A stretch of DNA of 64,000 nucleotides from Mycobacterium sp. 3519A. GTDB taxonomy: Bacteria > Actinomycetota > Actinomycetes > Mycobacteriales > Mycobacteriaceae. Location: the NCBI RefSeq assembly GCF_900240945.1, contig NZ_OESG01000013.1, positions 62,001 through 126,000 of the forward strand, written 5' to 3'. Positions 190 to 22,964 of the stretch are shown here, one piece after another. The position numbers were made by a program, and so were the translations under genes. Positions within the stretch are counted from its first letter, which is position 1; every line of letters begins with the position of its first letter. The notes below the pieces were generated by a model that saw only the letters and a program-made list of their open reading frames with translations, was not told where the DNA came from and did no database searches.

Positions 190-212
190 GATTCGGACGC
201 TACTCTGAGTTC

Positions 213-659: not shown

Positions 660-723
660 GTGCGGAAATGCGCGCTCACCGCTCTCAGATGCACACAAAT
701 CGCCGTGAAGTAGCGTCGTCGGG

Positions 724-1506
724 GTGAACCTGGCCTACGACGACCGCGGTAGAGGCGACCCGGTGCTGTTCATCGCGGGGCGCGGCGGCGCGGGACGCAC
801 CTGGCACCTGCATCAGGTGCCGGAGTTCCTGCGGGCGGGTTATCGCTGCGTCACCTTCGACAACCGCGGTATCGGCGCGACGGAGAACGCCGAGGGTTTC
901 ACCACCGAGACCATGGTCGGCGACACCGCCGCGCTGATCGAGAAACTCGACCTCGCGCCGGTGCACATCGTGGCGGTGTCGATGGGCGCCTACATCGCGC
1001 AGGAACTGATGGTGGCCCGCCCCGAGCTGGTCCGCTCGGCGGTGCTGATGGCCACCCGCGGCCGGCACGACCGCACCCGCGACTTCTTCCGCACCGCCGA
1101 GCTGGACCTGGTGCGCTCCGGCGTGTCGCTGCCGCCGTCCTACGACGCGAAAGTGCGCCTGCTGGAGAACTTTTCACCCAAGACGCTGAACGACGACGCC
1201 GCCGTGCGCGACTGGATCGACATGTTCACCATGTGGCCGACCAAGCCGACGCCGGGCGTGATGACCCAGGTGTCGATCGCGCCGGAGGGCAACCGGCTCG
1301 CCGCGTACCGGAGCATCAAGACGCCGGTGCTCGTCATCGGCTTCGCGGACGACGTGGTGCTGCCCGCGCATCTCGGCAAAGAGGTCGCCGACGCCATCCC
1401 CAACGGCCGTTACCTGGAGATACCGCACACCGGCCACCTCGGATTCATCGAACGGCCGCAGGTCGTCAACGCCGCGGCCCTGAAATTCATCGCCGATAGT
1501 CTGTAG
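724..1506 (+). CDS. bpoC: Alpha/beta hydrolase, BpoC/MenH-like
   Basis: 260 aa, alpha/beta-hydrolase fold. The nucleophile elbow reads VAVSMGA (Ser86, with Ala replacing the first Gly of GxSxG). A candidate acid lies in GFADD (Asp209/210) and the catalytic His is in PHTGH (His238). M. tuberculosis Rv0554 (bpoC) occupies the same place just before menD. It was named a non-heme bromoperoxidase, but the pairing with menD also suggests a MenH-like (SHCHC synthase) role; that part is inference. The GTG start at 724 gives the family length. The TAG stop overlaps the menD start by one base, implying translational coupling. Confidence 0.8.
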
Positions 1507-3137
1507 TGGTGAACCCATCGACTGCGCAGGCCCGCGTGGTCGTCGACGAATTGATTCGCGGCGGCGTCCGGGACGTGGTGCTGTGCCCGGGTTCGCGGAA
1601 CGCGCCGCTGGCCTTCGCGCTGCACGACGCCGACCGGGCAGGTCGCATCCGCCTGCACGTCCGCATCGACGAGCGCACCGCTGGCTATCTGGCGATCGGG
1701 CTTGCGGTGGCCGAACGCGCCCCGGTGTGCGTGGCGATGACGTCGGGCACCGCGGTCGCCAACCTCGGGCCCGCGGTGGTGGAGGCCAATTACGCCCGTG
1801 TCCCGCTGATCGTGCTGAGCGCCAACCGGCCCTACGAACTGCTCGGCACCGGCGCCAACCAAACCTTCGAGCAGATGGGCTACTTCGGCACCCAGGTGCG
1901 CGCCAACATCAGCCTCGGCCTCGCCGAAGAAGGCCCCGAGCGGGTCGACGCGCTCAACGCGCAATGGCGCTCCGCGACATGCCGAGTCCTGGTGGCCGCC
2001 ACCGGATCTCGCACCGCCAACGCGGGCCCGGTGCAATTCGACATCCCGCTGCGCGAGCCGCTGGTGCCCGACGCCGACGACCCGGCCGAGCGCTACGCGC
2101 CCGAGGGCAGGCCCGACGGCAGGCCGTGGACCTACACCCCGCCGGTCACGTTCGATCAGCCGCTCGACATCGACCTGACCCCGGACACCGTCGTGATCGC
2201 GGGGCACGGCGCTGGCGCGCATCCGAACCTCGCCATGCTGCCAACGGTCGCCGAGCCGACCGCGCCGCCCGCGCAGAATCCGCTGCATCCGTTCGCGCTG
2301 CGACTGGTCCGCCCGCAGCAGGTGATCATGCTGGGCCGCCCGACGCTGCACCGGCCGGTGTCGACGCTGCTGGCCGATCCGTCGGTGCCGGTGTATGCGC
2401 TGACCACCGGGCCGCGCTGGCCGGACGTGTCGGGGAACTCGCAGGCCACCGGCACGCGGGCGGTGACCACCGGCGAGCCGAATCCGGCCTGGTTGCACCG
2501 CTGCGCCGAAGTCAACCGGCATGCGGTCGAGGCGGTGCGCAGCCAACTCGCGGCGCACCCGCTGACCACCGGACTGCACGTCGCCGCCGCCGTCGCCGAC
2601 GCGGTGCGGCCCGGCGACCAGTTGGTGCTGGGCGCCTCCAACCCGGTGCGCGACGCCGCGCTGGTCGGCCTCGACCCGCAGGGCATCAAGGTGCGGTCCA
2701 ACCGCGGCGTCGCGGGTATCGATGGCACGGTGTCGACGGCGATCGGCGCGGCGCTCGCGCATGACGGCAGGACCATCGCGTTGATCGGTGACCTGACGTT
2801 CGTGCATGACAGTTCCGGGCTGTTGATCGGGCCGACGGAGCCGACGCCGCGCAACCTGACCATCGTGGTGTCCAACGACAACGGCGGCGGCATCTTCGAA
2901 CTGCTCGAGCAGGGCGACCCGCGGTTCTCCGACGTGTCGTCGCGGATCTTCGGCACCCCGCACGACGTCGACGTCGGCGCGCTGTGCCGGGCCTACCACG
3001 TCGAGAGCAGGCAGATCGAGGTCGACCAGTTGATCGGCGCGCTCGGTGAGCGGTTCGAGGGGATGCGCGTGCTGGAGGTGAAGGCCGACCGGTCGTCGCT
3101 GCGGGCGTTGCACGCATCGATCAAGGCTGCCCTGTGA
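1506..3137 (+). CDS. menD: MenD, SEPHCHC synthase
   Basis: 543 aa. This thiamine-diphosphate enzyme joins isochorismate and 2-oxoglutarate (losing CO2) in menaquinone biosynthesis. The N-terminal PYR domain contains [13 protein letters not shown] and the candidate catalytic Glu56 (RIDERTAGY), followed by [15 protein letters not shown] and LSANRP. The C-terminal PP domain has the ThDP/Mg motif GDLTFVHD at 428-435. Length and motif order fit mycobacterial MenD. The GTG at 1506 overlaps the previous stop; a second GTG at 1509 is an equally good start. It sits in a run with the bpoC-like hydrolase upstream and a DUF3592 protein overlapping by 4 bp downstream. Confidence 0.95.
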
Positions 3138-3643
3138 GGCATCTGAATGCGTTGCGGCGCTTCCTGATTCCCCGGCTGACCAAGGATCCCGGCGAAACTC
3201 TGTCCCAACGCGTGTTCCGCCGGATCCGGATCGGGATCATCGTCGTCGCATGTCTGGTGACGCTGCAGTCGGTGCTGCTGGTGCTGGGCGCGTGGCGCAA
3301 CGACCGGCAGATCGAGCGCCACATGGGTGTGGCCGAAGCCAACGTGCTCAACGCCGGACCGCGGCGGTCCACCATCGAGTTCGTCACCCCGGACCGCGTC
3401 ACCTACCGTCCCGAACTGGGCGTGTTGTACCCGTCGGAACTGGAGAACGGGATGCGGATCTACGTGGAGTACGACACCAACAACCCCGATCTGGTTCGGG
3501 TGCAAGACCGTAACGCGTCGCTGGCCATCATCCCGGCAGGCTCGATCGCGGTGGTCGGCTGGCTGATCGCGGGCGCCCTGCTGGCCGGCGTCACGCTGGT
3601 CGAGAAGCGAATGACCAGAACACCTGCCGCCGTTCAGGATTGA
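3134..3643 (+). CDS. DUF3592-type membrane protein (Rv0556-like)
   Basis: 169 aa with two clear transmembrane segments, about residues 34-57 ([20 protein letters not shown]) and 127-155. Between them lies an extracytoplasmic region of about 70 residues with beta-rich character ([31 protein letters not shown]), the usual arrangement of DUF3592 proteins. The GTG start overlaps the menD stop by 4 bp (GTGA), so it is co-translated with menD. The same gene follows menD in M. tuberculosis (Rv0556). Its role is unknown. The last 10 bp overlap the convergent DsbA-like gene. Confidence 0.8.
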
Positions 3644-4323
3644 ACGAGCTTGTTCAGCCAGTCGTTGTCGTAGATGTCGAGCTTCTCGCCCTTGTCCAGG
3701 TCGTAGACGGTGGGGGTACCCATCTCGGTCGAGTCGATTTCGTAGAGGAACTCGAAGTTGGCGTCGTCCATGTCCTTGATGTTGACCGCTGACCCGCCGC
3801 CCTTGATGTTCTGCGCGACGGCGTCGGGCATGCCCGCCTTCTTGGCGTACTCCGCGAGTTCGTCCCCGGTGGGTGGCGTGCCGCCGGGACGCTGGTTGGC
3901 CCAGACGTTTTCGACGAAGCGCTGGAACTCGGTGCCGGTCGCCGTCACCGCGGGTGAGCCGGCCTTGTCGGCGGCCAGAAACAGCGCGTTGCTGACCTGA
4001 CCCGAATAGCCGTCGGTCTTGTCGTCCATGAAGATCATCGGCCGGTAGGTCACCTCGAGTTCGCCGACAGCGATGTAGTAGGCGAGTTCGTCGCCGAAAT
4101 CGTGCTGCAGATCCGCGCAGTGGTTGCACTGCGGTTCGGTGTAGATCTCGATCTTCTTGGGCGCGTTGGCGAATCCGGCGACGACTCCGAAGCCGTCCTT
4201 GCTGACCGACAGCGGCGGCTTGTCCGGATCGGGTGCCGCGGTGCCCGCGACCTGCTTGGTGCAACCGACGGCGGTGATTGTCAACGCCGTCGCGATCAGC
4301 GCCAAGACCCGGGATATCCGCAT
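3634..4323 (-). CDS. DsbA-like thioredoxin-fold lipoprotein
   Basis: 229 aa. A signal peptide ([21 protein letters not shown]) ends in a lipobox cysteine, followed by a [12 protein letters not shown] linker. The mature domain starts [20 protein letters not shown]; the CNHC motif marks a thioredoxin-fold thiol oxidase/isomerase of the DsbA/Thioredoxin_4 group. It is probably anchored on the outer face of the membrane and involved in disulfide formation or transfer; its client proteins are unknown. The ATG at 4323 was chosen because it begins the signal peptide; the frame stays open further upstream without any recognisable protein. It is convergent with the DUF3592 gene and divergent from mgtA. 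Confidence 0.82.
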
Positions 4324-4426
4324 GTCAACCGCCCTTCTTTGTGCGCACGATACTCGGCACGAGGTTTTTGCGTGTCGTATGCCCCCAGGCAACCTTTGCG
4401 ACAGCCGTCGATGCGACATTCGTGGC

Positions 4427-5554
4427 GTGCGCGTTGCAATCGTCGCAGAATCGTTCCTTCCGAATGTCAACGGCGTTTCGAATTCGGTGCTCCGGGTGAT
4501 CGAGCATCTGCGCCGCACCGGGCACGAGGCCCTGATCATCGCCCCGGACAACCCGCGCGGTGAACCCGCTGCCGACAAGGTGTACGACGGCATCCGTGTG
4601 CACCGGGTGCCGTCGCGGATGTTCCCGAAGATCACCTCGCTGCCGCTAGGCGTGCCGCGACCGCGGCTGGTGAACGTGTTACGCGGTTTCGACCCCGACG
4701 TGGTGCATCTGGCGTCGCCGGCACTGCTCGGCTACGGCGGCCTGCACGCGGCGCGTCTCCTCGGGGTGCCGACCGTCGCCGTATTCCAAACCGACATCGC
4801 GGGTTTCGCGCAGAGCTACGGCATCGGCTTCGCAGCCCGCACCGCCTGGGCGTGGACGCGGCACCTGCACAGCCGCGCCGACCGCACCCTGGCGCCGTCG
4901 ACCGCCGCGATGGAAGACCTGACAGCACACCGCATTCCGCGGGTGCACAAGTGGGCCCGCGGGGTCGACATCACCGGCTTCGCTCCGTCGACGCGTGACG
5001 ACGTCCTGCGGCGCCGCTGGTCGCCGCAGGGTAGCCCGATCGTCGGTTTCGTCGGGCGACTCGCACCGGAGAAGCATGTCGAACGGCTGGCGCCGCTGGC
5101 CGGACGCGACGATCTTCAGCTCGTAATCGTCGGCGACGGGGTCGACCGCGGAAAACTCGAAAAGGCGCTTCCGTCAGCGATTTTCACCGGTGCACTGTAC
5201 GGGACCGAGCTCGCGACGGCCTACGCCAGCATGGATGTCTTCGTCCACCCCGGCGAGCACGAGACGTTCTGCCAAGCAGTCCAGGAGGCGATGGCGTCGG
5301 GTCTGCCCGTCGTCGCCCCGAACGCAGGCGGGCCGCGCGACCTGGTCGCGCCGTACCGCACCGGATTGCTGTTGAACGTCGACGAGTTCGAAGCCAGGCT
5401 GGCCGACTCTGTCGACCATCTGATCGCCGAACGCCAACGCTATTCGCTGGCCGCTCGCCGCAGCGTGCTCGGCCGCACGTGGCCCGCGATCTGCGAGGAG
5501 TTGCTCGGCCACTACGAGGACGTCATCGGCATGCGCCGCGCCAAAGCCGCGTGA
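4427..5554 (+). CDS. mgtA: GT4 alpha-mannosyltransferase MgtA (PimB)
   Basis: 375 aa, GT-B fold, glycosyltransferase family 4. It begins [20 protein letters not shown], almost as I remember Rv0557, which fixes the GTG start at 4427 although the frame is open upstream. The EX7E donor-binding motif is at E279-E287 ([11 protein letters not shown]), followed by [18 protein letters not shown]. In M. tuberculosis MgtA (formerly PimB) transfers mannose from GDP-mannose to a glucuronosyl-diacylglycerol acceptor, and a role in lipomannan synthesis has been debated. It is expected at the inner face of the membrane. Confidence 0.92.
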
Positions 5555-5570
5555 GTCTCGCGCTGGAAAC

Positions 5571-6395
5571 TCAGCCCTGCGCCTCGACCGCGACCAGCTG
5601 CCACTCTTCCCAAGTCTTGAGCCGGTTCTCGTAGTCGGCCTTGGCCAGTGACAGCGGCAGCTCACCGAAGAACACGCGCAGCGGCGGCTCTGCAGCATCG
5701 ACGATCTTGAGCACCGCGCGCGCCGACGCCTGCGGATCGCCCGGCTTGGACGTGCGCTGGCTGCGCGCCCGCTCGGCTGCCTCGTGCACCTCTTTGTAAT
5801 CGGGCAGCGGCGCGGAGCGCTTGGCCGACGACCCCGCCCAGTCCGTCGCGAACCCGCCCGGTTCGATCAGCGTCACGTGGATTCCGAACGGCGCGACCTC
5901 CTGCGCCAGGCTCTGCGAGAAACCCTCCAGCGCCCACTTCGACGCGTGGTAGATGCCGACGTTCTGAAACGCGGTGATGCCGCCGATCGACGACACCTGC
6001 AGGATGTGGCCGCTGCGTTGCGCACGCAGGTACGGCAGCGCGGCCTGCGTCACCCACAGCGCGCCGAACACGTTGGTCTCGATCTGCGCCCGCGCCTCGG
6101 CCTCGGTCAGTTCCTCGATGAAGCCGAAGTGGCCGTAGCCGGCGTTGTTGACGACGATGTCCAACCGGCCGAAGTGGTCGTGAGCCTGTTTGACCGCGGC
6201 GAAGTCCGCGTCGCGGTCGGTGACGTCGAGTTGCAGAGGCAGCAGCGCGTCGCCGTACTTCTCGACCAGGTCGGCCAGCGTCGCGGTGTCGCGCGCGGTG
6301 GCGGCGACCTTGTCGCCCCGCTCCAGCGCCGCGATCGCCCACTCCCTGCCGAACCCGCGTGATGTCCCGGTGATGAACCAAACCTTGTTACTCAT
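5571..6395 (-). CDS. Short-chain dehydrogenase/reductase
   Basis: 274 aa classical SDR. The cofactor loop is TGTSRGFG (residues 9-16), with NNAGYG, a serine in SSIGG, and YHASK as the Tyr-x3-Lys catalytic pair. An arginine after the second strand (ATARD) suggests a preference for NADP(H). This type (MSNKVWFITGTSRGFG) is common as an oxidoreductase of unknown substrate in mycobacteria. The ATG at 6395 directly precedes the beta-1 strand. The gene is convergent with mgtA, with 16 bp between the stops, and has no obvious operon partner. Confidence 0.85.
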   Translation of the reverse strand: MSNKVWFITGTSRGFGREWAIAALERGDKVAATARDTATLADLVEKYGDALLPLQLDVTDRDADFAAVKQAHDHFGRLDIVVNNAGYGHFGFIEELTEAEARAQIETNVFGALWVTQAALPYLRAQRSGHILQVSSIGGITAFQNVGIYHASKWALEGFSQSLAQEVAPFGIHVTLIEPGGFATDWAGSSAKRSAPLPDYKEVHEAAERARSQRTSKPGDPQASARAVLKIVDAAEPPLRVFFGELPLSLAKADYENRLKTWEEWQLVAVEAQG

Positions 6396-6475
6396 GGTGG
6401 TGGTAATGCCCGCTGTGGCCCGCCTCATTCCCGAATTCGCGAATCAGAAGGCTGTGAGTTCGCTGAGGCCACGCC

Positions 6476-6925
6476 TCAGTCAGGCCGGTTGTAGATGACA
6501 CGCGTGCGAAAGACGATGTCCTGCAATGATCTTCGATTCCGGTCAACGGCGACCCAGAGCAGGCCCACCGGAAACAGCACGTACGCGACCGCCCGAAGCA
6601 ACGCGACCGCCGGTGCGACACGTCCTGAGCGGCGGCCGGTGACGCGCAGACCCATCGTCACCGCGCCGGCCGTGCATCCTGACACCACCCAACAGGAGGT
6701 CAGGTAGAGGACGGCAACCGCGAACGTGATCAGGGTGGAGAACACGGCATTGAGCGAAGGCAAGCTGAACGCGGCGGGTGAGAACACCAATCGGGTCAGC
6801 ACCAAGCCCGCGTACAGCGCGCCCATGATCAGCAGAACGACGACCAAGTCGATCACGGCGGCGATACCCCGGCTCACGATTCCGGCAGCGCGCGCTTGCC
6901 CGGCGGCAGGCGTCGGTTGGGTCAC
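6476..6925 (-). CDS. RDD-family membrane protein
   Basis: 149 aa with several hydrophobic segments. The first reads IVSRGIAAVIDLVVVLLIMG, the RDD signature with an Arg and an Asp in the first helix. Later segments include ITFAVAVLYLTSCWVVSG and LLRAVAYVLFPVGLLWVAV, with WVAVDRNRRSLQDIVFRT matching the conserved RDD C-terminus. RDD proteins are integral membrane proteins of mostly unknown function, some linked to transport. It overlaps the upstream 182-aa gene by 4 bp, so the two are probably one transcription unit. Confidence 0.8.
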   Translation of the reverse strand: MTQPTPAAGQARAAGIVSRGIAAVIDLVVVLLIMGALYAGLVLTRLVFSPAAFSLPSLNAVFSTLITFAVAVLYLTSCWVVSGCTAGAVTMGLRVTGRRSGRVAPAVALLRAVAYVLFPVGLLWVAVDRNRRSLQDIVFRTRVIYNRPD

Positions 6926-7470
6926 TGCGGCGCTCGGGTCCGCCCAAGGACGCGATCGACGATCCCGGCGACCACGTCGTCGGCGCGTTCACCCTGAGTG
7001 CGGACGTCGGTCATCACCTCGGCGGTCACCGAGTTCGTCGACTCGCGGATGATCGCCGGGAGATCGACGCCGTCGATCACCTTGTTGGCCAAGTCGATCA
7101 GGTCCATCCGGTCCACGATCGCGTCGATATCGAATTCGGCGGCAATCGCGTTGATGTCGACGTGTTCGCGGACCAGCGTGGTGAGATCCAGCTCGGCCAG
7201 GATCTGCTCGACCATGTTCACCGCGACGGTGGTGACGAGAGTTCTGACCGGGTCGACGGCGTGCGTGAGCACCTGTTCGCCCTGAGCGGTAAGGGCGGCC
7301 ACCCCTTTTCTGACCGCCGGTCCGACCACCGGCAATCTGGTTATCACGCCGTAGGTCGCCGCGGCCCCGCCGACGGCCAGCGTCGCCGCGCCCGCGGCGG
7401 CAGACACCACCGGGTTCTTCGGCACGTCGACGTCATCGGTCACCTCGGCATCGTAATTGCGTATTGCCAC
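6922..7470 (-). CDS. Conserved hypothetical protein, operon partner of RDD protein
   Basis: 182 aa from a GTG start. A short acidic N-terminus ([15 protein letters not shown]) leads to a hydrophobic Gly/Ala/Val segment ([20 protein letters not shown]) that could span or associate with the membrane. The rest is amphipathic and rich in Ile/Asp/Val, with repeated [24 protein letters not shown] patterns. No catalytic motif is visible. The stop overlaps the RDD gene by 4 bp. It is divergent from menG with about 38 bp between starts. I know similar proteins as mycobacterial hypotheticals only. Confidence 0.65.
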
Positions 7471-7508
7471 GGACGAGGCGGTCTGAGCAACCAGGTAGCG
7501 TCGCGTGC

Positions 7509-8195
7509 GTGAACCGCGCGACGCTGGACAAAGACCCGCATGAAGTGGCGTCGATGTTCGACGCCGTCGCGCGCCGCTACGACCTGACCAACACGGTGCT
7601 GTCGCTCGGGCAGGACCGGTTCTGGCGACGGGCCACCCGCTCGGCGCTGCGCATCGGGCCTGGCGACAAGGTGCTGGACCTGGCGGCGGGCACGGCGGTG
7701 TCGACGGTCGAACTGGCGGCTTCCGGCGCCTGGTGTGTGGCCGCGGACTTCTCGGTCGGCATGTTGGCAGCCGGTGCGCAGCGTGACGTGCCCAAGGTCG
7801 GGGCCGACGCGACGCGGCTACCGTTCGCCGACGGCGTGTTCGATGCGGTGACCATCAGCTTCGGGCTGCGCAACGTCGTCGACCACGCGGCGGGGCTGCG
7901 CGAGATGGCCCGCGTGACACGGCCCGGCGGCCGGCTGGTGGTGTGCGAGTTCTCGACGCCGACGAACGGCGCGTTCGCCACCGCCTACAAGGAGTACCTG
8001 ATGCAGGCGTTGCCGCGGATCGCCCGCGCGGTGTCGTCGAATCCGGACGCCTACGTCTATCTCGCCGAATCGATTCGGGCGTGGCCCGATCAAGCGGAAC
8101 TGGCGCGCCGCATCGCCGGCGCAGGCTGGTCAGCCGTGCGGTGGCGCAACCTCACCGGCGGCATCGTCGCGCTGCACGCCGCCGTCAAGCCCTAG
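7509..8195 (+). CDS. menG: MenG (UbiE-family) demethylmenaquinone methyltransferase
   Basis: 228 aa. The SAM-dependent enzyme performs the last methylation of menaquinone. The N-terminus [17 protein letters not shown] and the following [17 protein letters not shown] match my memory of Rv0558 and set the GTG start at 7509. SAM motif I is [10 protein letters not shown] (55-64); ISFGLRN and [16 protein letters not shown] are UbiE/MenG signatures. Some internal spacing is a few residues shorter than in Rv0558, but no motif is lost. It belongs functionally with menD and menJ in this segment. Confidence 0.94.
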
Positions 8196-8227
8196 CGGCG
8201 GCGCTGAGTCGCCGGTAGTTTCGGCTC

Positions 8228-9286
8228 ATGGCTCACGGTCGTCTCGCAGATCCCGAATGCTCTCTCGGTACCGATCCCCGTTCCGACCCGCGAATGGTCA
8301 AGGCGCTGGCGCAGTTTGGTCTCGACGGTCTACTGGCCCCACTCCCGGTGACCGTCGATTCGCCGCTTCAGGAGCGGATCGAGTTCAGCAAGCTCGGTGA
8401 GGACGGCATGGCTGCGGTGTTCGCTGCGCTGGCGCAGGAGAGCCCTGCTGTGGAGGGCGTGACCACCACGACGACGACGATCGCGGGCGGTGACGGCAAC
8501 GACGTGACGCTGTACATCAGTCGCCCGGACGGTGTGTCCGGCGCGTTGCCGGGTGTGGTGCACCTACACGGTGGTGGCATGGCGATCAGTCGCGCCGATG
8601 ACCCGGGCTACCTGAAGTTGCGCGAATACCTCGCCAGCACAGGCGTAATCGTGATCGGTGTGGAGTTCCGCAACTCCGGCGGCAAGTTCGGTCCGCATCC
8701 GTTCCCGGCGGGACTCAACGACTGCGCGGCGGCGACGCAGTGGGTATCGGCGAACCGCGCTGAGTTGGGCATCAGCCATCTGATCGTGTCGGGGGAGTCC
8801 GGCGGCGGCAACTTGACACTGACCGTCGCGCACAAGGCGAAACGCGAAGGCTGGCTGCATGAGGTCGCCGGGTTCTACGCGCAGTGCCCCTACATCTCGA
8901 ATCGTTGGTCGGAGGACTGCGAGGACCTGCCGTCGATGAAGGAGAACGACGGGTACTTCATCAGCCTGCAGCAACTCGCAGTGCTCGCCTCGCTTTACGA
9001 TCCCACCAATTCGCATGGCGGCGACGCCACCTGCTGGGCCTACGTGGCCAGCGACGCGGAGCTGAGCGGTCTTCCGCCGCACGTTATTTCGGTCAACGAA
9101 CTCGATCCGCTACGCGACGAAGGACTCGCCTACTACCGTCGGCTACTGCGTGCGGGGGTGCCCACTGTCGGCCGGATGGTCCTCGGCACCTGTCACGGCG
9201 GCGACCTGATGTTCCCTGGCGCCATGCCGGAGGTGTTCGAAGCGAGCATGCGTGACGTCAGCGCATTCGCGAAATCGCTGACCTAA
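8228..9286 (+). CDS. Alpha/beta hydrolase, HSL-family esterase
   Basis: 352 aa. The oxyanion motif HGGG is at 114-117 (VHLHGGGMAIS), the nucleophile is Ser191 in GESGGGN, and an Asp in NELDPLRDEG plus a His in TCHGGD complete a plausible triad. This is the hormone-sensitive-lipase (family IV) esterase arrangement, with a longer cap of about 90 residues before the HGGG. Likely substrates are short- or medium-chain esters; none can be named. The stop overlaps the convergent 150-aa gene by 4 bp. It follows menG by 32 bp and could be read through from it. Confidence 0.83.
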   Translation: MAHGRLADPECSLGTDPRSDPRMVKALAQFGLDGLLAPLPVTVDSPLQERIEFSKLGEDGMAAVFAALAQESPAVEGVTTTTTTIAGGDGNDVTLYISRPDGVSGALPGVVHLHGGGMAISRADDPGYLKLREYLASTGVIVIGVEFRNSGGKFGPHPFPAGLNDCAAATQWVSANRAELGISHLIVSGESGGGNLTLTVAHKAKREGWLHEVAGFYAQCPYISNRWSEDCEDLPSMKENDGYFISLQQLAVLASLYDPTNSHGGDATCWAYVASDAELSGLPPHVISVNELDPLRDEGLAYYRRLLRAGVPTVGRMVLGTCHGGDLMFPGAMPEVFEASMRDVSAFAKSLT

Positions 9287-9735
9287 TCGGCGAACTCCCG
9301 CCACAGCCGGGCGGTTTCGCGGCCGACGTCGGCGTCGTGGGTCTGCTGGAAGTTGCGGCCACCGCGGGCGAACGTCGCCAGCACGGCCGCAGGAACGTCC
9401 TCCTCGCCGACCGGTTCGGCCAGCCACCGGCACGGTCGGACATGCACGAGGTCGACGGCCACCGCGGCGGCGTCGTCGTCGTAGAAGTACGGCCCGTCGA
9501 TCCGGCCCAGCCAGTAGCGGCCGGCGTCGTCGCGGGTCCAGACGAACGCGCCGTCGGGGATCGCCATGAACCGCTCGACCCGACGGCCGAGCCGCTCCTG
9601 CTCGCCGCGGTCCATGACCCGCCTGCCGAACCCGCACACACCGAGCCTGCGGGCACGCTCGACCGCAGCCCGGCTGTCCACGTCGTCGCTGCGCGACCGC
9701 ATCGGTGCGCGATAAACCTCGGGCATAGCGCTCAT
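9283..9735 (-). CDS. Small soluble protein, function unknown
   Basis: About 150 aa from the ATG at 9735 (a second ATG at 9726 is possible). The core reads GAFVWTRDDAGRYWLGRIDGPYFYD, followed by VDLVHVRPCRWL and FARGGRNFQQTHD. This pattern (W-x-GxI-x-GPY-x-Y, then a W-rich strand) resembles the small beta-barrel modules found at the N-terminus of Mrr/McrB-type restriction proteins, but no nuclease part follows. The resemblance is a reading by eye, so the gene is left as hypothetical. It is divergent from the 94-aa membrane protein and convergent with the esterase. Confidence 0.6.
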   Translation of the reverse strand: MSAMPEVYRAPMRSRSDDVDSRAAVERARRLGVCGFGRRVMDRGEQERLGRRVERFMAIPDGAFVWTRDDAGRYWLGRIDGPYFYDDDAAAVAVDLVHVRPCRWLAEPVGEEDVPAAVLATFARGGRNFQQTHDADVGRETARLWREFAD

Positions 9736-9745
9736 CCTGCGCGAT

Positions 9746-10030
9746 ATGCTCCCGCGCGTGGCCACGTTCTGGCGCTACGTCAAGATTCAGCTGATGATGT
9801 TCGTCTTCGGCATCGTCGGACCGATCTTCTTGATCATCTTCTTTGCGACGCAACCCGATCCGACGATGAAGTGGGCGTACTGGGCCGGATTGTTCATCAC
9901 CGCAGCCGACGTGTTGATCGCGATCGCGCTGACCAAGGCCAGCGACCCGGACAAGACGCCCGCCGATCTCCGGCTCGCGCTCAAAGTCGCACAGCGCCTG
10001 CAGGGCGGCAACGGGCCTACGGGCGACTAG
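9746..10030 (+). CDS. Small two-helix membrane protein
   Basis: 94 aa with two hydrophobic helices, about residues 16-34 (LMMFVFGIVGPIFLIIFFA) and 43-63 (AYWAGLFITAADVLIAIAL), and a charged C-terminal tail. No family is recognised. The ATG at 9746 is used; GTG at 9758 would shorten it by four residues. It is convergent with the next esterase gene with a 4-bp overlap of stops. Conserved small membrane proteins of this shape are common in mycobacteria. Confidence 0.62.
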   Translation: MLPRVATFWRYVKIQLMMFVFGIVGPIFLIIFFATQPDPTMKWAYWAGLFITAADVLIAIALTKASDPDKTPADLRLALKVAQRLQGGNGPTGD

Positions 10031-14177: not shown

Positions 14178-15686
14178 CTACTTCTTCCGGGGCCGGGCCG
14201 TGGCCTTGGGCATCGGACGCCAGATCGCAACCGAGGTCTTGTACGACAGCTTCTTGGCCCAGTGCACGCTCACCTTGACCGCGCCGACCGGGTGACCGTC
14301 ATCGATCGCCGCCTTGATCTGCTTGGCGATCTCGACCACCGAATCCGGGACCTTCTTGTAGTGGCCTTCGCGGTCGATGACCCGCTGCAGCCGACTCTTG
14401 ACGAAGCCGTGCGGATCACGCTGTGCGTCGGAAAACTTGCCGGGATAGTCCTTTTCGGAACTCTTGACCTCGAAGAAGTAGATCCATGCGACGTCACCCT
14501 TGACCTTGATCGCGACGAGGTCGACGCCGTGACCGCTGGGGTTCTGCAACTCGACGACCGAGTAGCCCCTCAGTTTGAGCGTCAACTTGAAACTGGCCTC
14601 GCCCATCTCACCGGTGCGCAGATCGCGGCCGTAGTTCTTGCTGGCTTCGGCCTCGATCCGCCTGCGCAGGTCCGCCAGGGAGGCATCCGTGAGCTGAGCC
14701 ATCTCGGCCTCCAGCTCCTTGTCGCCTGGCGTCAGCAGACCCTCGAGCCCCTCCCACGGCTTGGTGGCCGCGGTCAGCGCCACATTCACCGCTTCCACGG
14801 GGTCGATCTTCTTCACAACGCTGCCACCGAGCTCCTTTTCGGTCTGTCGCACCAGACCGCGCTCGGTGTTCGAGATCGTCGGGCTGAACGCGGCCTCGGT
14901 GAGATCGGCACGCCTGCCGAGCGACGGCGCGCTCGTCAAGGCGATCGCGAACGCCGCCAGCATGGTGCGGTTGATCTCGTCCCACCGCTTGCAGAACTTG
15001 TCAGCGGCTTGGTTCAGCGAATCGCCTTCGTGCAGAACGTAATAGACGACTTCCTTCCAGAACTGCGGGTTGTCGTTGCCCAGCACGTACAGCTCGAGAC
15101 GGTCGACCCCCCGCCACGCAAACCAGCCGCCGCGCACCGCGTACCACTTGATCCATTCGACGTCCGGCCAGCCCTTCCACTCCTTGCTGGGAGGTACTGG
15201 AGGCACAGGAACGATGCCGTAAGGAAAGGCCGCGACATACAGCCCTGGCTTGAGCGCGGTGAGCGCCTGCCCGCCGGTCATGCCGAGCGCGGGCACGTAG
15301 GTGTTGTTGTGCGCGCGGTTGGCTTCGCGGGCCCTCTCCTCGGCCGCCTCACGCGCCCACCGGTCTTCGGCGAACTCATCGCCGCCCTGTATCACGCGGT
15401 ACCACAACCGTTCGCCGTACGACGACAGCAGCGTCAGGTCGAACGCGCCTGCCTCCCATTTCAGCAGCCAACGCATCGCCGGGTTCCCGCCGCGCTGCGG
15501 TTCGAGCGTGTAGCGGGGCGGTAGTTCGCCGCTACGGAACACCAGCTTGGCGATTTCGTGCGCGAACACCCAGGTGTCGAAGTCCAGCGTCATCGACCGT
15601 GCCAGGGTCTGTTGCACCCGGGCCTGCGGCACGTTCGCGGTGCCCCGCTTGTCTGTGCCCCGCTGTTTGGCCGTCGGCGATGACAT
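14178..15686 (-). CDS. Protein with C-terminal PD-(D/E)XK-like nuclease domain, function unknown
   Basis: 502 aa, not recognised as a full-length family. The C-terminal part from about residue 350 reads as a restriction-endonuclease-like fold: Glu363 (GEMGEASFKL), then GHGVDLVA with Asp389, then FFEVKSSEK with Glu406 and Lys408, followed by helices. That is the E-D-ExK order of PD-(D/E)XK nucleases seen in many polymorphic toxins. The first 350 residues are rich in Trp/Tyr and end in acidic helices; they contain a Pro-rich turn (IVPVPPVPPSKEWKGW). There is no signal peptide. It starts 3 bp after the stop of the 1160-aa gene, so they form one operon. No immunity gene is obvious next to it. Confidence 0.7.
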   Translation of the reverse strand: MSSPTAKQRGTDKRGTANVPQARVQQTLARSMTLDFDTWVFAHEIAKLVFRSGELPPRYTLEPQRGGNPAMRWLLKWEAGAFDLTLLSSYGERLWYRVIQGGDEFAEDRWAREAAEERAREANRAHNNTYVPALGMTGGQALTALKPGLYVAAFPYGIVPVPPVPPSKEWKGWPDVEWIKWYAVRGGWFAWRGVDRLELYVLGNDNPQFWKEVVYYVLHEGDSLNQAADKFCKRWDEINRTMLAAFAIALTSAPSLGRRADLTEAAFSPTISNTERGLVRQTEKELGGSVVKKIDPVEAVNVALTAATKPWEGLEGLLTPGDKELEAEMAQLTDASLADLRRRIEAEASKNYGRDLRTGEMGEASFKLTLKLRGYSVVELQNPSGHGVDLVAIKVKGDVAWIYFFEVKSSEKDYPGKFSDAQRDPHGFVKSRLQRVIDREGHYKKVPDSVVEIAKQIKAAIDDGHPVGAVKVSVHWAKKLSYKTSVAIWRPMPKATARPRKK

Positions 15687-15689
15687 GCG

Positions 15690-18600
15690 CTACGCCTCAG
15701 GCGGCACGACCACCGAGCCGTTACCGTCGATGAGGATCTGCTTGTCGATATCGGGATCGCCGCGCTCGGCGACCAACAGGCGACCGGCGTAGCGCAGGTT
15801 CTCCAACTCGAGCTTGCGCACCTCGGCGCGCGCCTTGGAGACGTCGACGGCGCGGTGCCGTAGCTTGAAGTCCTCGAGGTTGGGATGCTTGCCAGGCAGC
15901 GCGTCGATGTACAGCGACCGGCTGGGCACCACGATCTCCTCGCCGGGCCTGCGGGGCGCGCTGAGGATGCGACGGTATTGCTCCTCCAGAATCGGCAACA
16001 ACTGGTCGAAGTCGGCCTCCGACAACGTGTTTCGGAGAGCCTTGACGTGTTTGACAAAATCTTCTGGGGTCCACGCGCCCAGTTCGTCGGGGTCGTGCAC
16101 GCCGAGCTCGGTGTCGATGTATGGCGTCATCATGAAGTCCGTCAGCGCGTTAGAACGCTTCAGCGGGAAGATCATGTAGTTGCCCTTGAATCCGAGCGGG
16201 CTGTCCAGATCGGCGATCTCTGCCAACGTGCGGTCCTCGGCCGGGTCTACGGGATCAACGGGATCCGCCGGCGTACTGAAAACCTTCTCCGAAGTGACCT
16301 TGAATACCACGTGATCGGGCTTGGGGACGATGTGTGCCGGCGGCGCATCGAGACGTTCGACGGTGTACTGGACCGACGATGCGCGAAGCGTCGGCGCCTT
16401 GAGTTTGTGCACGGAGAAGTAGAGCTGATCGCGGAACGTGTGACTCCAGATGGCCTGCATGTAGTACAGCACGTTGGCCTTGAAATGCACCCGTAGCGCG
16501 GCGACTTGAAGGAGCCGGTTGGAGTGCTCGGCCAGCGCCTGGGCGTAGTCCGCGGTCGCTTTGTACAACGCCGCGGCTTCGCTGCGCAGCGACTCCCGCA
16601 GCTCCTGTTCGGCCCGAACGGCCTTCTCGTAGTAGGCGCGTGCGTTCTCTTCGCGAACGCGCACGGCTTCGAGGTCATCGCCTTCGCCCTCACCGGTCAC
16701 CCAGTCGGAGAGCGAACCCCACCAACCTTCCTGCGCCTCTTCGTCGATCTTGTCGGCTCGCAGATTCATCATCCGCTCGAGCTCGTTGTTGCGCTGCTTG
16801 ACCTCGGTCAGCAACTGTGCGTGATTCCGCTCGATGGTCTCGACGCTGGTGCGCAGCCGGTTCACGATGCTCTGCCGCTCGCGCAGGGCGAGTTCGTCTC
16901 CGACGATGGTCGTCGTCAGGTAGCGCAGAGCGTCTCGGTAGCGGTCGTCGAGCAAGACGCGGTTGATGATCCAGCTGTGCGTGATGAGAATGCGGTCGAT
17001 CGAGCGGCGACTCGGGTTGGGCACCTCCATGCCGACCAGTACCACCGGCGTCAACCGGTGTAGCTGTTCGCATACCCGGAAGCGCCGCTGCAATTCGTAG
17101 AACAAGTACGTCACCGTGAGTTCGTCGTTGGGATTGGTGATCTCGGTCGACTCCGTCGACTCGAACTCCGACGTCTCCTTGGTTTCGATCTCCAGCTTGT
17201 GGTTGTTCTTGTACTCGCGGGCGGCCTGAAGCACCGCCTCGCGCATCGACTTCTTGGTATCGGCCGAGTCGTCGGAAGCGTCCTTGGTGAACGATGTCTT
17301 GCTGTCGCCGTCGGCGATGCCGATGTCGTAGCTGCCCTCCGCGGTGAGCGAAAAGCTCGTCTTGCCTTGCGCTTTGCGCACGATCTCCGCCTCGTCGCGG
17401 CCCTGGTCCTTTGACTCGTCTTTGCGAACCTCGAGGCTGTCCTCCATCTCACGGACCATGCGTTCCTTGCGCTCCACCCGCTTGATGTTGATCTTGCGGG
17501 TTTCCCGAGGGGTGAGCGTGATCGTGCCGACGAGATCGCCGACCTGGTAGGTGAGCGGCTCCCACCGCTGCCGATACGTGACGTTGAGGCCGTAGTTGAC
17601 GCTGCCGGGGGCGAACACCTCGAAGCTGTACTGCTCGTGCAGCAAGGCCTCGAGCTGGTCGAGCAATTCATGCGGTTGCTTTGGCAGACCGTCGATTTGG
17701 GCGTCTTTGACTCCGCCGACCACCACGGGGCCGATCGGCGGCCAGTGTGGCGGCGTCGGCGGCGGCGGTGTTGGCGGAACCGGCGGGTAGCCCGGGTCAC
17801 CGGGGGCCAGCGTGGGGGGGGTCGGGTTCATCATGGGGTCGACCGGGCGACGGGCGAGCGCAGTTGGGATGGTCGGGGTTTCGGCGCGCATGACGTGGCC
17901 GAGTTCGGCCCGCAGCGCCTGCAACGGCTTGGCGCCTTCGTCGACGGCCGTCACCGGATCGCCGCCGGCGTCGCTGACCGCGCGGGCGAGCCGTGACGAG
18001 ATCTCGATGACCTCTTCGTCGACGGCGTGTGTCCAGACGTGGTCGAAGGCGATCTGCAGGTGGTGGAAGTCGTAGATCGCGGGCACGTCGGCGGGGCCGC
18101 CGCGCAGGGCGAAGGTGTCGGTGCCGCTTTGCACGGCGGCTTGGTCGGTTCGTGTTTCGGTCGGCGGTGCGTCGGGCGTGGCCATGGTGTCGACCAAACG
18201 GTGAATGTAGGCGGGCAAGTCGTCCTCGGTGGCAACAGGAGGTTGCCCGGATGGCGGCGTGGTGGGGTCCGGCGCCGGTGCAGGGTCGGCGAGCGCCTCG
18301 GTGAGCGACGGTGGTTGCGATGCCTGGTCCTCGGCAAGCGCCAGGGGATCCTCGCGGGTGCGGTCGGCGGTCCGGAACGCATCCTCGGCCGCGCCGAACA
18401 GCTCGCGTTCGACGATTGGGGCCGGCACATCAGTGGGCGTGCCTGCGGCCGTCGGGAATTCGGTTGGGACGTCGTCGCGCGGCAGTTGGATATAACCGAC
18501 CGTCGGCGGCTTGGACCGGTTGGCAGACCGCGCCAGCGCGTTCCAGCTGGCGGTGTGGACTTCGTCCTCCGTTGAACCCGGTGCGATGTAGCCGGTTTTA

Positions 18601-19172
18601 GCGCTCGCATGTCCGGTGAGTTGATCGAGAAGCCGCGGTTGGAACTTCTCGTCGATGGTGCGGGCGCGTTCGCGTTCCTTGTCGACTTCATCCTTCGCGA
18701 GCTGGCGTAGCTCGTCCTTGAGCACTGCGGTGCGAGCCAGTGTCGCTTTGGCGCCGTGCAGCGCGAAGGCGGGTTGTTCGAGGGTGGTGTCATCCGAGCC
18801 GGCCGGAGGTGTGAGGCCCGCGGCTTCGAGCGCGGCAGAGGTGAGGGTGATCAGGAATTCCTCGACCGGGCCTGCTTTCCGACGCGGCTCTGGTGTGGTG
18901 TACAGCTTCGCGCCCTCACGTTCGCCATCGGGCGCGCGCACGACGACGACGATGTCATGGCTCCTGGCCGGCTCGCAGGGGTAGACGACTTCGAAACCGC
19001 CGTCCTGTCCGGTGATGACAGCCCCCAGCCGCGAGACGTCGGCGGTCTCGGACGGCGGCGTCGTGGCGTCGTGGCGTGTCACGTCGAACGCCGTCACGAC
19101 GAGATTCGGGATGCCGACTCCGGACTCTGTGAGCACGATCCGGCCGCCGATGCGTTGAAATGTTGATGCCAC
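15690..19172 (-). CDS. Very large protein of unknown function: TTR-like N-domain, proline linkers, coiled coils
   Basis: 1160 aa. Residues 8-110 look like a transthyretin/carboxypeptidase-regulatory beta domain (GGRIVLTESGVGIPNLVVTAFD, DGGFEVVYP). A Pro/Ala/Asp-rich region with helices follows (120-440), then a proline stretch (450-482). From 510 a large conserved-looking region begins with NYGLNVTYRQRWEPLTYQVG and LTPRETRKINIKRVERKERM. Residues 565-680 and 755-890 are highly charged, probably coiled coils. The C-terminus holds VPSRSLYIDALPGKHP, then a charged helix. It has no signal peptide or membrane helix. GTG 19172 follows a strong AGGGGAGGA site. It is the first gene of an operon with the nuclease-like protein. 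The function is unknown. Confidence 0.72.
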   Translation of the reverse strand: MASTFQRIGGRIVLTESGVGIPNLVVTAFDVTRHDATTPPSETADVSRLGAVITGQDGGFEVVYPCEPARSHDIVVVVRAPDGEREGAKLYTTPEPRRKAGPVEEFLITLTSAALEAAGLTPPAGSDDTTLEQPAFALHGAKATLARTAVLKDELRQLAKDEVDKERERARTIDEKFQPRLLDQLTGHASAKTGYIAPGSTEDEVHTASWNALARSANRSKPPTVGYIQLPRDDVPTEFPTAAGTPTDVPAPIVERELFGAAEDAFRTADRTREDPLALAEDQASQPPSLTEALADPAPAPDPTTPPSGQPPVATEDDLPAYIHRLVDTMATPDAPPTETRTDQAAVQSGTDTFALRGGPADVPAIYDFHHLQIAFDHVWTHAVDEEVIEISSRLARAVSDAGGDPVTAVDEGAKPLQALRAELGHVMRAETPTIPTALARRPVDPMMNPTPPTLAPGDPGYPPVPPTPPPPTPPHWPPIGPVVVGGVKDAQIDGLPKQPHELLDQLEALLHEQYSFEVFAPGSVNYGLNVTYRQRWEPLTYQVGDLVGTITLTPRETRKINIKRVERKERMVREMEDSLEVRKDESKDQGRDEAEIVRKAQGKTSFSLTAEGSYDIGIADGDSKTSFTKDASDDSADTKKSMREAVLQAAREYKNNHKLEIETKETSEFESTESTEITNPNDELTVTYLFYELQRRFRVCEQLHRLTPVVLVGMEVPNPSRRSIDRILITHSWIINRVLLDDRYRDALRYLTTTIVGDELALRERQSIVNRLRTSVETIERNHAQLLTEVKQRNNELERMMNLRADKIDEEAQEGWWGSLSDWVTGEGEGDDLEAVRVREENARAYYEKAVRAEQELRESLRSEAAALYKATADYAQALAEHSNRLLQVAALRVHFKANVLYYMQAIWSHTFRDQLYFSVHKLKAPTLRASSVQYTVERLDAPPAHIVPKPDHVVFKVTSEKVFSTPADPVDPVDPAEDRTLAEIADLDSPLGFKGNYMIFPLKRSNALTDFMMTPYIDTELGVHDPDELGAWTPEDFVKHVKALRNTLSEADFDQLLPILEEQYRRILSAPRRPGEEIVVPSRSLYIDALPGKHPNLEDFKLRHRAVDVSKARAEVRKLELENLRYAGRLLVAERGDPDIDKQILIDGNGSVVVPPEA

Positions 19173-20571: not shown

Positions 20572-21885
20572 TTACAGGTAGTTCCCGACGGGCATCTGCG
20601 GCCGGAACCGGCCGGAAGTCACGGTGTTGACCAAGTCCGCAGTGCAGACGCGCCCGGATCCGGACAGCACGGTGCGGCGCACGATCTCGCGGATGTCGGC
20701 GCCGCTGGTGTCCGGGCTGAGGTGTGCGGCCACGGCGGCCAGATCGACGTCGTCGGCCCCTGGCACATCGCAGAGATAGGTCGCCAGGATGCGCGCCGCG
20801 GCTTCCCTTGTGGGATAACCGATTTCGATGATCGAGTCGAAGCGCGCCGACCGAACCGCCGCCGCGTCAAGGGTTTTGACGTCATTGGTGGACGCCACGG
20901 TGAGTAGCGGCGTCATCGGGTCGGCATCCATGACAGCCAGGAACTCGGACAGCACGGTGTCGGCGCCGTTGCCACTGCGATGGCCGACGATCAGGTCGAT
21001 GTCTTCGATGATGACAAGGGTCGGCCCGAAACTGCGGGCTTCCCGGTAGACCGCGGACAACGCGTGTCGACCCGCCCGGGCGTCGACCATCACCACGGTG
21101 AACTGGCCGAGGAGTTCGTGGGCAAGTACCCGGGACACCACGGACTTGCCGACGCCGGGTGGCCCGGCGAGCAGGATGCCGCGACGGAGGCCGAGCCCCA
21201 ACCGCTCCATTAGGTCCCGGTGGACGGTAACGGCGGCGACGTTCAGATCGATCTCGCTCCAGACTTCGTCGGGCACAATAACCTTGGCGCGGGTGATCTC
21301 CGGAAGTTCCACAGGTTCGAGGACCAGGCCCTGCTCCATGGATGCGGTCAAGGCGCGACCGCGAAAGAGGCTCATCGCGCCACGGGCGTCTTCCATGATG
21401 GCGTCCAGCACGCGCGCGGCGTGCGCACGGTCGGCGGGCACGGTGTAGACCTGAATGAGGCAGAACTCGCCGTAAGCGTTCGATTCGATCTGAACGACGA
21501 TCGGTACCGGCGCGAGTTGACCCGCATCGAAGAAGGCGGCCAGCGTCGCAGGAGGCGCGAACCGTTCGTCGCCGATCTCGACGGCACCCCACGTCGGGGG
21601 TTCATCGTTGTTGCCGGGCCCGATGGGCGGGTCGAACTTGTCGATCAGCGCCGCGAGCGCCAAACCGGCTGTGACATGGCCAATCGAGGACAGCGATCGC
21701 GACTCACACACCACGTCGGAGTCGAACCCGCCAAGGGAGGAGTGCAGAAACCCGTCGAACGTCGTTCGGACACATACGTTGTCGGTGAGAATCCGGCCGA
21801 GCAGCTCGAGGGCTCGTTGGACATGCTCGGACTCGCCGGCAAGCGCGGACGACAGCGACGAAGAACACTCCTCCTTTCTGGACAC
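20572..21885 (-). CDS. AAA ATPase with unassigned N-terminal domain
   Basis: About 437 aa. The C-terminal half is an AAA module: Walker A GPPGVGKS (241-248), Walker B TLVIIEDID (289-297), sensor-1 ASTND and an arginine pair in VRSARFDSIIEIGYPT, then a lid helix domain. This is the Cdc48/FtsH-type classic AAA layout. The N-terminal 200 residues have no recognisable domain. The only usable in-frame start upstream of conserved sequence is GTG 21885, but a perfect AAAGGAGGA lies just downstream of it (21868-21877) with no in-frame start at normal distance, so the N-terminus is doubtful. The gene separates htpX from gpsA together with the nuclease and giant genes. Confidence 0.78.
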   Translation of the reverse strand: MSRKEECSSSLSSALAGESEHVQRALELLGRILTDNVCVRTTFDGFLHSSLGGFDSDVVCESRSLSSIGHVTAGLALAALIDKFDPPIGPGNNDEPPTWGAVEIGDERFAPPATLAAFFDAGQLAPVPIVVQIESNAYGEFCLIQVYTVPADRAHAARVLDAIMEDARGAMSLFRGRALTASMEQGLVLEPVELPEITRAKVIVPDEVWSEIDLNVAAVTVHRDLMERLGLGLRRGILLAGPPGVGKSVVSRVLAHELLGQFTVVMVDARAGRHALSAVYREARSFGPTLVIIEDIDLIVGHRSGNGADTVLSEFLAVMDADPMTPLLTVASTNDVKTLDAAAVRSARFDSIIEIGYPTREAAARILATYLCDVPGADDVDLAAVAAHLSPDTSGADIREIVRRTVLSGSGRVCTADLVNTVTSGRFRPQMPVGNYL

Positions 21886-21941
21886 GGTGAACCAGTATGA
21901 ACCCGCCGACCGGCAAAGGCCAGCTAATTTTTCAGGCGGGC

Positions 21942-22964
21942 TCAGAAGCCGGAGCCGTGCACCTCGTGGCCGGGCGTCTCGGCCACCAGTCCGCGGTAGG
22001 CCTGCTCGACGGTGGAGCCGTGGTTGATGACGCCGTCGACCTCGCGGGCGATGGGCATGTTGATGCCGTACTTGTCGGCGAATTCCATGATCACGCTTGA
22101 GGCTTTGACACCCTCGGCGACCTGATTCATCGACGCGATGATCTCGTCGATCGGCTTGCCAGCGCCCAGTTGTTCGCCGACGTGGCGGTTGCGGCTGCGT
22201 TGACTGGTGCACGTGACGATCAGGTCGCCGGTGCCCGCCAGGCCGGCGAACGTGTCGCGGTGCCCGCCGACCGCCTCGCCCAGCTTGGACATCTCCCGCA
22301 CCGCGCGGGTGATCACCATGGCGCGGGTGTTCTCCCCGATGCCCAGCGAGTAGCCCATGCCGACCGCGATCGCGTAGACGTTCTTCAGCGCTCCCGCCAT
22401 CTCGACGCCGGTGACGTCGTCGGTGGTGTACGTCCGGAAACGCTTGGTGCGGAACAACTCCGCCAGCCGCGCGGCGAGATGCTGGTCGGGCATCGCGAGC
22501 ACCGCGGCGGCCGCGTAGCCGTCGGCCACCTCACGGGCGATGTTCGGCCCGGCGAGGATGCCTGCCGGATGGCCGGGCAGCACCTCGTCGACGATCTGGC
22601 TCATCCGGTAGTTGGTGCCCTGCTCGAGTCCCTTCACCAGCGACACCACCGGCACCCACGGCCGCAGTTCCTTGGCCAGCTCAGTCAGCACTGCGCGGAA
22701 GCCGTGCGACGGCACGCCCATGACGATGACGTCGGCGCACTGTGCGGCCTCGGCGAAGTCGGTGGTGGCCCTGAGACTCTCAGGCAGTTGCGTCTCGTCG
22801 CCGAGGTACTTCGAGTTGCGGTGGTTGTCGTTGATGTCGTCGGCGGTCTCCTGCGAGCGCACCCACTGCAGCGTCGGGCCGCGCCTGGCGCAGATGGACG
22901 CCACAGTGGTGCCCCAGGATCCTCCGCCGAGGACGACGACTTTCGGTTCGCGTTGCGCAGCCAT
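21942..22964 (-). CDS. gpsA: GpsA, glycerol-3-phosphate dehydrogenase [NAD(P)+]
   Basis: 340 aa. It reduces dihydroxyacetone phosphate to sn-glycerol-3-phosphate for phospholipid synthesis. The nucleotide loop is GGGSWG (13-18); VSLVKGLEQGTN and EMAGALKNVYAIAVGMGYS contain the conserved lysines; the substrate site TSQRSRNRHVGEQLG is typical. The length matches Rv0564c (GpdA1, 341 aa as I recall). The start MAAQREPKVVVLGGG at 22964 places the Rossmann fold as expected. It is the first conserved-synteny gene after the htpX insertion. Confidence 0.95.
   Translation of the reverse strand: MAAQREPKVVVLGGGSWGTTVASICARRGPTLQWVRSQETADDINDNHRNSKYLGDETQLPESLRATTDFAEAAQCADVIVMGVPSHGFRAVLTELAKELRPWVPVVSLVKGLEQGTNYRMSQIVDEVLPGHPAGILAGPNIAREVADGYAAAAVLAMPDQHLAARLAELFRTKRFRTYTTDDVTGVEMAGALKNVYAIAVGMGYSLGIGENTRAMVITRAVREMSKLGEAVGGHRDTFAGLAGTGDLIVTCTSQRSRNRHVGEQLGAGKPIDEIIASMNQVAEGVKASSVIMEFADKYGINMPIAREVDGVINHGSTVEQAYRGLVAETPGHEVHGSGF

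Follow-up and report, generated by a model that had tools for sequence, protein, structure and literature searches.

A constant protein with exchangeable, toxin-like partners: a probable two-gene polymorphic toxin module in Mycobacterium sp. 3519A and distant microbes

Introduction

What is the function of the two long genes that lie between htpX and gpsA in Mycobacterium sp. 3519A, when we take htpX and gpsA to be direct neighbors in M. tuberculosis? We analyzed a 64,000-nucleotide stretch of this genome (NZ_OESG01000013.1, positions 62,001–126,000), which we call the window and whose numbering we use throughout. The first of the two genes encodes a protein of 1160 amino acids (P0003), which we call C; the second encodes a protein of 502 amino acids (P0002), which we call its partner. 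An earlier reading of the DNA without database searches (the sequence-only reading) had considered a conflict, effector, or stress module.

Toxin delivery systems are usually found via known machine parts or via immunity genes. The two genes studied here probably form a polymorphic toxin module in which C would be the dedicated carrier, adaptor, or translocator. The data directly support a constant protein, a changing partner, toxin families among the partners, and mostly missing immunity genes. The toxin ends belong to known kinds. We could not find a description of their constant companion, of its spread, or of the lack of immunity genes, and we recognized no described system that matches C and its partner in the open-licence literature. 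An unnamed constant protein that flags polymorphic toxins across several phyla and in an archaeon would be a new handle for discovering effectors.

A two-gene operon under purifying selection

C is the first gene of the operon. It has a GTG start and spans 15690..19172 on the reverse strand. P0002, the second gene, has an ATG start and spans 14178..15686 on the same strand, with 3 bp between the stop codon of C and its own start. At the syntenic locus in Mycobacterium sp. ACS1612 (locus L002, genome G061), a single 11.5-kb alignment runs across the pair at 90.5% DNA identity, and the proteins are 92.8% (C) and 95.2% (P0002) identical. Between these two loci, the ratio of nonsynonymous to synonymous substitution rates (dN/dS, by the Nei-Gojobori method, NG86) is 0.100 for C and 0.061 for P0002, and the constraint is strongest in the final third of each gene (0.028 for C and 0.032 for P0002). 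Both frames behave as genes under purifying selection, which, along with the coordinates of the open reading frames (ORFs), confirms the two-gene operon that the sequence-only reading had described. The GC content of the pair (65.1%) does not stand out from that of the window (64.8%).

C is constant and its partner changes

Relatives of C turned up at 21 loci in a scan of one genome per species and in four records of a plasmid collection. With the window, this makes 26 loci, or 25 further ones (numbers with the prefix L denote these loci or other fetched regions). The hosts include Actinomycetota, Bacteroidota, Acidobacteriota, Pseudomonadota, a Brocadia, a deltaproteobacterium, and a member of the Rhodothermaceae; the single archaeal host is the haloarchaeon Salinirubellus, from a plasmid record. 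Across the core of the protein, BLASTP identities are 31–47%. C is rare: it is present in one of 61 relatives. Among 396 Actinomycetota genomes, seven have some match to C, which is near full-length only in the window's own genome; four of the other matches are to the N-terminal 120 positions and two are weak. A phage origin of C was considered and rejected, as we found no relative of C among phage sequences and none of 11 candidates from IMG/VR was confirmed.

Sequence beyond C is available at 25 loci. At 24 of these, C is followed 2–231 bp downstream by an ORF on its own strand that is 295 amino acids or longer. This count excludes L010, whose sequence stops 295 bp past C, and takes L021 from a separate ORF comparison; ORFs were taken from the first start codon (in L025, the annotated gap is 173 bp). 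The partners range from 295 to 1148 amino acids. By BLASTP, the only whole-length match to P0002 is the copy from ACS1612. The sequence-only reading had suggested looking for the pair itself in other genomes, and as a recurring unit the pair does not hold up: it is C that recurs, with a changing partner.

Some partners have related bodies. In an alignment, an N-terminal part of about 600 residues is common to the partners in L009, L015, L016, and L017. The match between L015 and L017 continues through the C-terminus, while L009 and L016 end differently. A shared N-terminal part with a varying C-terminal end is the pattern of polymorphic toxins. P0002 itself has a single known near relative. 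The partners in L004, L006, and L007 form a second body group. In the tree of C, L009 and L016 group with L022, which has a different partner, and L015 and L017 group with L013. L004 and L006 group with the window (L006 is on a long branch and its placement is unsure), and L007 groups with Sinorhizobium. Because related partner bodies sit with separate clades of C, the bodies travel between distant lineages of C. The tree of C, with its starred branches, also crosses phyla, with at least four changes for Bacteroidota and three for Actinomycetota. This is consistent with horizontal transfer of C, without being proof of it.

Toxin families among the partners

We compared 23 partners to Pfam, leaving out the near-copies L012 and L027. 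Five of the 23 have matches over the curated cut-off, and these are exclusively to toxin families: WHH nuclease in L014 (35.5 bits; cut-off 25.1), Ntox4 in L019 (49.3 bits; cut-off 25), and PT-TG in L021, L024, and L025 (40.0, 51.3, and 36.9 bits; cut-off 23.5). These families bear out the conflict or effector role that had been raised from the window alone. Below the cut-off, there were matches to Colicin-DNase (L014), Ntox5 (L022), GIY-YIG (L004), OmpA (L020), and MmcB-like (P0002). None of the 10 partners compared to NCBIfam had a match above the cut-off. The Pfam scan of the 23 partners found no trafficking domain of the type V, VI, or VII secretion systems (T5SS, T6SS, T7SS) or of the Photorhabdus virulence cassettes (PVC); signal peptides were assessed by eye only.

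A hydrophobic stretch of 19 residues with a mean hydropathy of at least 1.6 is found in 13 of 22 non-redundant partners, versus 1 of 21 C proteins. Such stretches would suit an effector that needs help to get across a membrane.

The predicted nuclease end of P0002

The C-terminus of P0002 (about residues 359–490; 14217..14612 on the reverse strand) is predicted to be a PD-(D/E)XK-like DNA-cutting enzyme. Residues 359–462 match a hypothetical protein of 619 amino acids from a plasmid of Xanthomonas fragariae (34.6% identity, E = 4e-7), and the Xanthomonas domain in turn matches proteins from Rhizobium (33% identity, E = 5e-7). The sequence-only reading had pointed to an E-D-ExK nuclease-like end. 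Those residues are present, and they are kept in the independent homologs from Rhizobium and Xanthomonas: E363, D389, E406, and K408 do not vary among the four sequences aligned, a set that includes one near-identical pair. Also, sub-threshold matches to YraN and MmcB-like, both of which we take to be of the PD-(D/E)XK kind, land on this stretch. A search of PDB sequences with the nuclease domain gave nothing useful, and we found no relatives of the domain in phages or IMG/VR.

The homolog from R. phaseoli (L069:6981-9544) belongs to a T6SS locus: it is flanked by a PAAR gene on one side and, beyond a single small gene, by a VgrG gene on the other. The genes downstream of this homolog and of the X. 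fragariae homolog (L053:3849-6641) are related to each other (29.8% identity over 121 amino acids, E = 1.6e-6), and their products have no match in Pfam. As related downstream genes are expected of immunity, the Xanthomonas and Rhizobium proteins and these genes are a candidate effector-immunity family. One of the downstream candidates had no match in the window's genome (G000) or in that of ACS1612, which is weak evidence.

Immunity genes are mostly missing

We considered an ORF to be immunity-like if it follows the partner on the same strand, is 60–350 amino acids long, and has a positive codon score. At 22 loci, the sequence extends more than 4.8 kb past the partner. Such an ORF begins within 100 bp of the partner at just one of them (L024); a limit of 300 bp adds L013 and L014, for a total of three. 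In the window, two same-strand frames past P0002 lie antisense in htpX. The adjacent immunity gene that marks polymorphic toxin systems is therefore not seen at these loci as a rule. Nothing else sets the module so clearly apart from classical polymorphic toxins. In an all-versus-all comparison of the flanking ORFs, we found no third gene family that is common to many loci, and no secretion gene is conserved beside C. The sequence-only reading had seen neither an immunity gene nor a secretion gene, and both observations are supported.

A possible tag in the partners

P0002 has a double-RG motif, RGTDKRGT, at residues 9–16 (15639..15662 on the reverse strand), and other partners have a similar motif. 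The pattern [RK]G[TVILS].{0,4}[RK]G[TVILS] is found in 9 of the 22 non-redundant partners (500 shuffles gave a mean of 0.78 and a maximum of 4), versus 2 of the 122 further ORFs in the loci that reach 300 amino acids (Fisher p = 4e-7, which is optimistic because the pattern was drawn up after inspecting the sequences). It lies within the first 20 or so residues in five partners (P0002, L003, L004, L011, and L022), at residue 61 in L025, and in the later part of L016, L017, and L018. In L004, the partner (L004:7916-10933) has the motif both at its start and before its GIY-YIG-like end (a sub-threshold match). The motif is possibly a tag for loading.

In the fetched regions with extracellular contractile injection system (eCIS) genes, the motif is found only in two related eCIS_core proteins from ACS1612 (RGSERGV); it is absent from the eCIS proteins of Chitinophaga, Flavobacteriales, and Streptosporangiaceae that we examined.

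Conserved features of C

P0003 had no match to Pfam, NCBIfam, PHROG, or PADLOC at E values up to 1, and a profile of C found nothing convincing among PDB sequences (best E = 0.14). In an alignment of 21 C proteins, the invariant columns cluster in two places. One is the motif GPADVPA-x-YDFH-x-LQIAFD-x-VW (residues 357–380; 18033..18104 on the reverse strand). The other is the core of the protein (residues 503–1159; 15696..17666 on the reverse strand), with its charged helical stretch and the block LGFKGNYMIFPLK. By eye, the alignment also has a variable loop, rich in Gly, Ser, and Thr, between two charged helical stretches.

Toward the N-terminus (about residues 8–125; 18798..19151 on the reverse strand), C has a putative carboxypeptidase-regulatory or transthyretin-like domain. 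The Pfam family CarboxypepD_reg, which we take to be of the transthyretin-like fold class, matches 3 of the 21 members (best E = 0.0042). The transthyretin-like domain proposed by the sequence-only reading thus has weak support from a few relatives and none from P0003 itself. This part of C also exists on its own: in a small Actinomycetota genome, a stand-alone protein of 124 amino acids corresponds to the N-terminal domain (L047:8298-8672). Its gene is in an operon-like row and, judging the neighbors by eye, follows a recR-like gene and precedes 2-oxoacid oxidoreductase-like ones. The four matches that are limited to the N-terminal domain fall within one family of Actinomycetota.

Genes around the pair

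htpX, on the forward strand, converges on P0002 and ends at 14174, 3 bp past the end of P0002. The stop codon of gpsA, on the reverse strand, is at 21942. The distance of about 7.77 kb agrees with the 7.8 kb that had been estimated. A gene for a CDC48/PAN-like AAA ATPase (20572–22212) adjoins gpsA; we dropped it from the module because it is not a conserved neighbor of C in other phyla.

In L007 (positions 1–10004), C is directly behind the tail module of a Mu-like prophage (Baseplate_J and Gp48), with a D12 methyltransferase gene and a NUDIX gene.

How the module might work, and alternative explanations

From these sequence patterns, we infer a mechanism in which C would bind its partner, probably via the partner's N-terminal half (the double-RG motif as a tag, plus the body), and the partner's C-terminal domain would enter a target cell and cut its DNA. 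Since most loci lack an immunity-like gene next to the partner, the target would more likely be a non-kin cell, perhaps a eukaryotic one, than a sister bacterium. The pair might leave the producing cell with contractile injection particles in some hosts and by lysis or a route of its own in others. We also considered a stronger version, which we think is unlikely: C could be the core of a self-contained, envelope-independent delivery device, common to bacteria and archaea. It would load exchangeable nuclease effectors via a tag at their N-termini and carry them into foreign cells (perhaps eukaryotic ones), with no need for a contractile machine, an export apparatus, or an immunity gene. If C does translocate by itself, it would be a new class of delivery system.

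Besides the after-the-fact choice of the motif pattern, several observations weigh against a toxin module. Most of the scanned partners (18 of 23, including P0002) have no Pfam match over the cut-off, and the partners in L013 (295 amino acids) and L020 (349 amino acids, with the sub-threshold match to OmpA) do not resemble toxins. The double-RG motif is missing from 13 of the 22 partners, and the best hydrophobic stretch of P0002 is modest (1.22). Short ORFs overlap the end of the partner in L016 (141 amino acids) and L011 (88 amino acids), and these could be immunity genes that are below our score cut. Finally, the one exception to the adjacency among the 25 loci is L006, where the frame of C is apparently split in the assembly.

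The pair could instead be cargo of an eCIS, with C as a cargo adaptor or co-effector and the partner as a toxin that is encoded away from the particle genes; we consider this possible, though rather less than probable. We searched for particle genes in 24 genomes or records (the window's genome, the 21 others, and two of the four plasmid records) and in 14 control genomes. The sheath family matched in 10 of the 24 (8 over the cut-off) and also in 3 of the controls; the tube family matched in 11 and eCIS_core in 10, with none of the controls matching either. Strong matches (E < 1e-10) to the eCIS tube (PF06841) or eCIS_core (PF13699) are found in 12 of 22 C-bearing genomes, although one of these (G066) has a weaker tube match only, and the sheath close to C in this genome is from a Mu-like prophage (Baseplate_J and Gp48). 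The tube is in 6 of 7 C-bearing Bacteroidota versus 75 of 295 sampled Bacteroidota (Fisher p = 0.0018), but in Actinomycetota it is in 2 of 6 versus 39 of 391 (p = 0.12); the background scans as a whole gave 76 of 296 Bacteroidota and 39 of 392 Actinomycetota. Ecology and completeness were not matched between the samples. Also favoring cargo, the partners in L019 (Ntox4) and L022 (Ntox5, sub-threshold) match families for which PMC3482391 lists PVC delivery and no immunity. Against it, the window's genome, which is 100% complete, has no tube match and just a weak core match (E = 9.6e-4); its sheath match adjoins encapsulin and DyP-like genes (by eye), with no particle cluster in 38 kb. Both Nocardia genomes lack the sheath, the tube, and the core. 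No eCIS gene is a conserved neighbor of C, the eCIS cluster of Flavihumibacter is about 130 kb away, on a contig whose length equals that of the contig with C, and the sheath near C in L007 is that of a Mu-like prophage. We rejected eCIS as the sole route, given the lack of a tube in the window's genome and of all three components in Nocardia. Since the window's genome has a lone sheath and no tube, eCIS may serve some hosts and is not required. The lone sheath-like ORF is a partial match to PF04984 (E = 1e-12) at about 1872876-1876983 of G000:C14 (L045:11877-15984). ACS1612 has an eCIS-like cluster at G061:C35:186000-224000 (L065 and L066), with two matches each to sheath, tube, and eCIS_core.

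Other explanations need no particle. In a binary AB-type toxin, C would suffice by itself as the pore or translocation subunit and take the partner into the target with no other machine. Two genes suffice in all of the loci, and the presence of C in Actinobacteria, Gram-negative bacteria, and an archaeon argues against a single secretion machine that is specific to one envelope; the variable loop between the charged helical stretches of C would also fit. But 20 of the 21 C proteins lack a hydrophobic segment of membrane-helix strength, and C has no sequence match to solved toxins (best E = 0.14). We think that a binary toxin is unlikely. We give still less weight to intracellular defense, in which C would sense a phage or other invader and release the partner nuclease, killing its own cell. 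Nuclease effectors without immunity genes do suit abortive defense, and the distribution of C is sporadic and transfer-like, with copies on plasmids. The C gene of L007 is just behind a prophage tail module with a methyltransferase, and one of the 21 C proteins matches ZorA from PADLOC (6.4e-5). On the other side, there are just three PADLOC hits among the 21, each a match of a single member, and those other than ZorA may reflect coiled coil; from the pair itself, the best PADLOC match of P0002 has E = 0.043 and P0003 has none, which places neither in a known defense family. Also, PMC3482391 describes PT-TG, Ntox4, and Ntox5 as domains of exported toxins. Lastly, C could be an unrelated accessory protein that is next to toxins by accident. 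In favor of this, most partners have no recognized domain, but adjacency in 24 of 25 loci, in several phyla, with different toxins each time and no other common neighbor, makes this very improbable.

Comparison with known systems

Tc toxins combine a large constant delivery protein with a hypervariable toxin end, which resembles C and its partner. Unlike Tc toxins, our module has no match to RHS or to TcA or TcB, it has just two genes, and its partners are 295–1148 amino acids long. The secreted RIX adaptors of the T6SS (PMC10435454) are also constant adaptors with polymorphic effectors. C is far larger than these adaptors, its hosts include Actinobacteria and an archaeon, and genes for VgrG, Hcp, or PAAR are not among its conserved neighbors.

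Like the effectors of eCIS and PVC (Ntox4 and Ntox5; PMC3482391), the partners include toxin families without immunity genes, and eCIS genes are found in 12 of 22 C-bearing genomes. Unlike them, the pair is outside of any eCIS cluster, the scanned partners lack eCIS_core (DUF4157), and the window's genome lacks the tube.

The PoNe DNase effectors are PD-(D/E)XK-type nucleases at the C-termini of toxins from several delivery systems and have the pattern GE...G[IV]D...ExK (PMC6688995); in these respects they resemble P0002. P0002 only partly fits the fuller motif given there, Kx3GE...GIDx2Y...Yx3ExK. According to the same paper, 1389 of 1546 PoNe genes precede a DUF1911 immunity gene, whereas no DUF1911 gene follows P0002.

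Our module has in common with the polymorphic toxin systems described by Zhang et al. (2012; PMC3482391) the modular proteins, the exchangeable C-terminal domains with nuclease or other toxin activity, and the families PT-TG, WHH, and Ntox4. It differs from those systems in that the immunity gene is mostly missing and a separate, constant protein of 1160 amino acids seems to replace the N-terminal trafficking domain.

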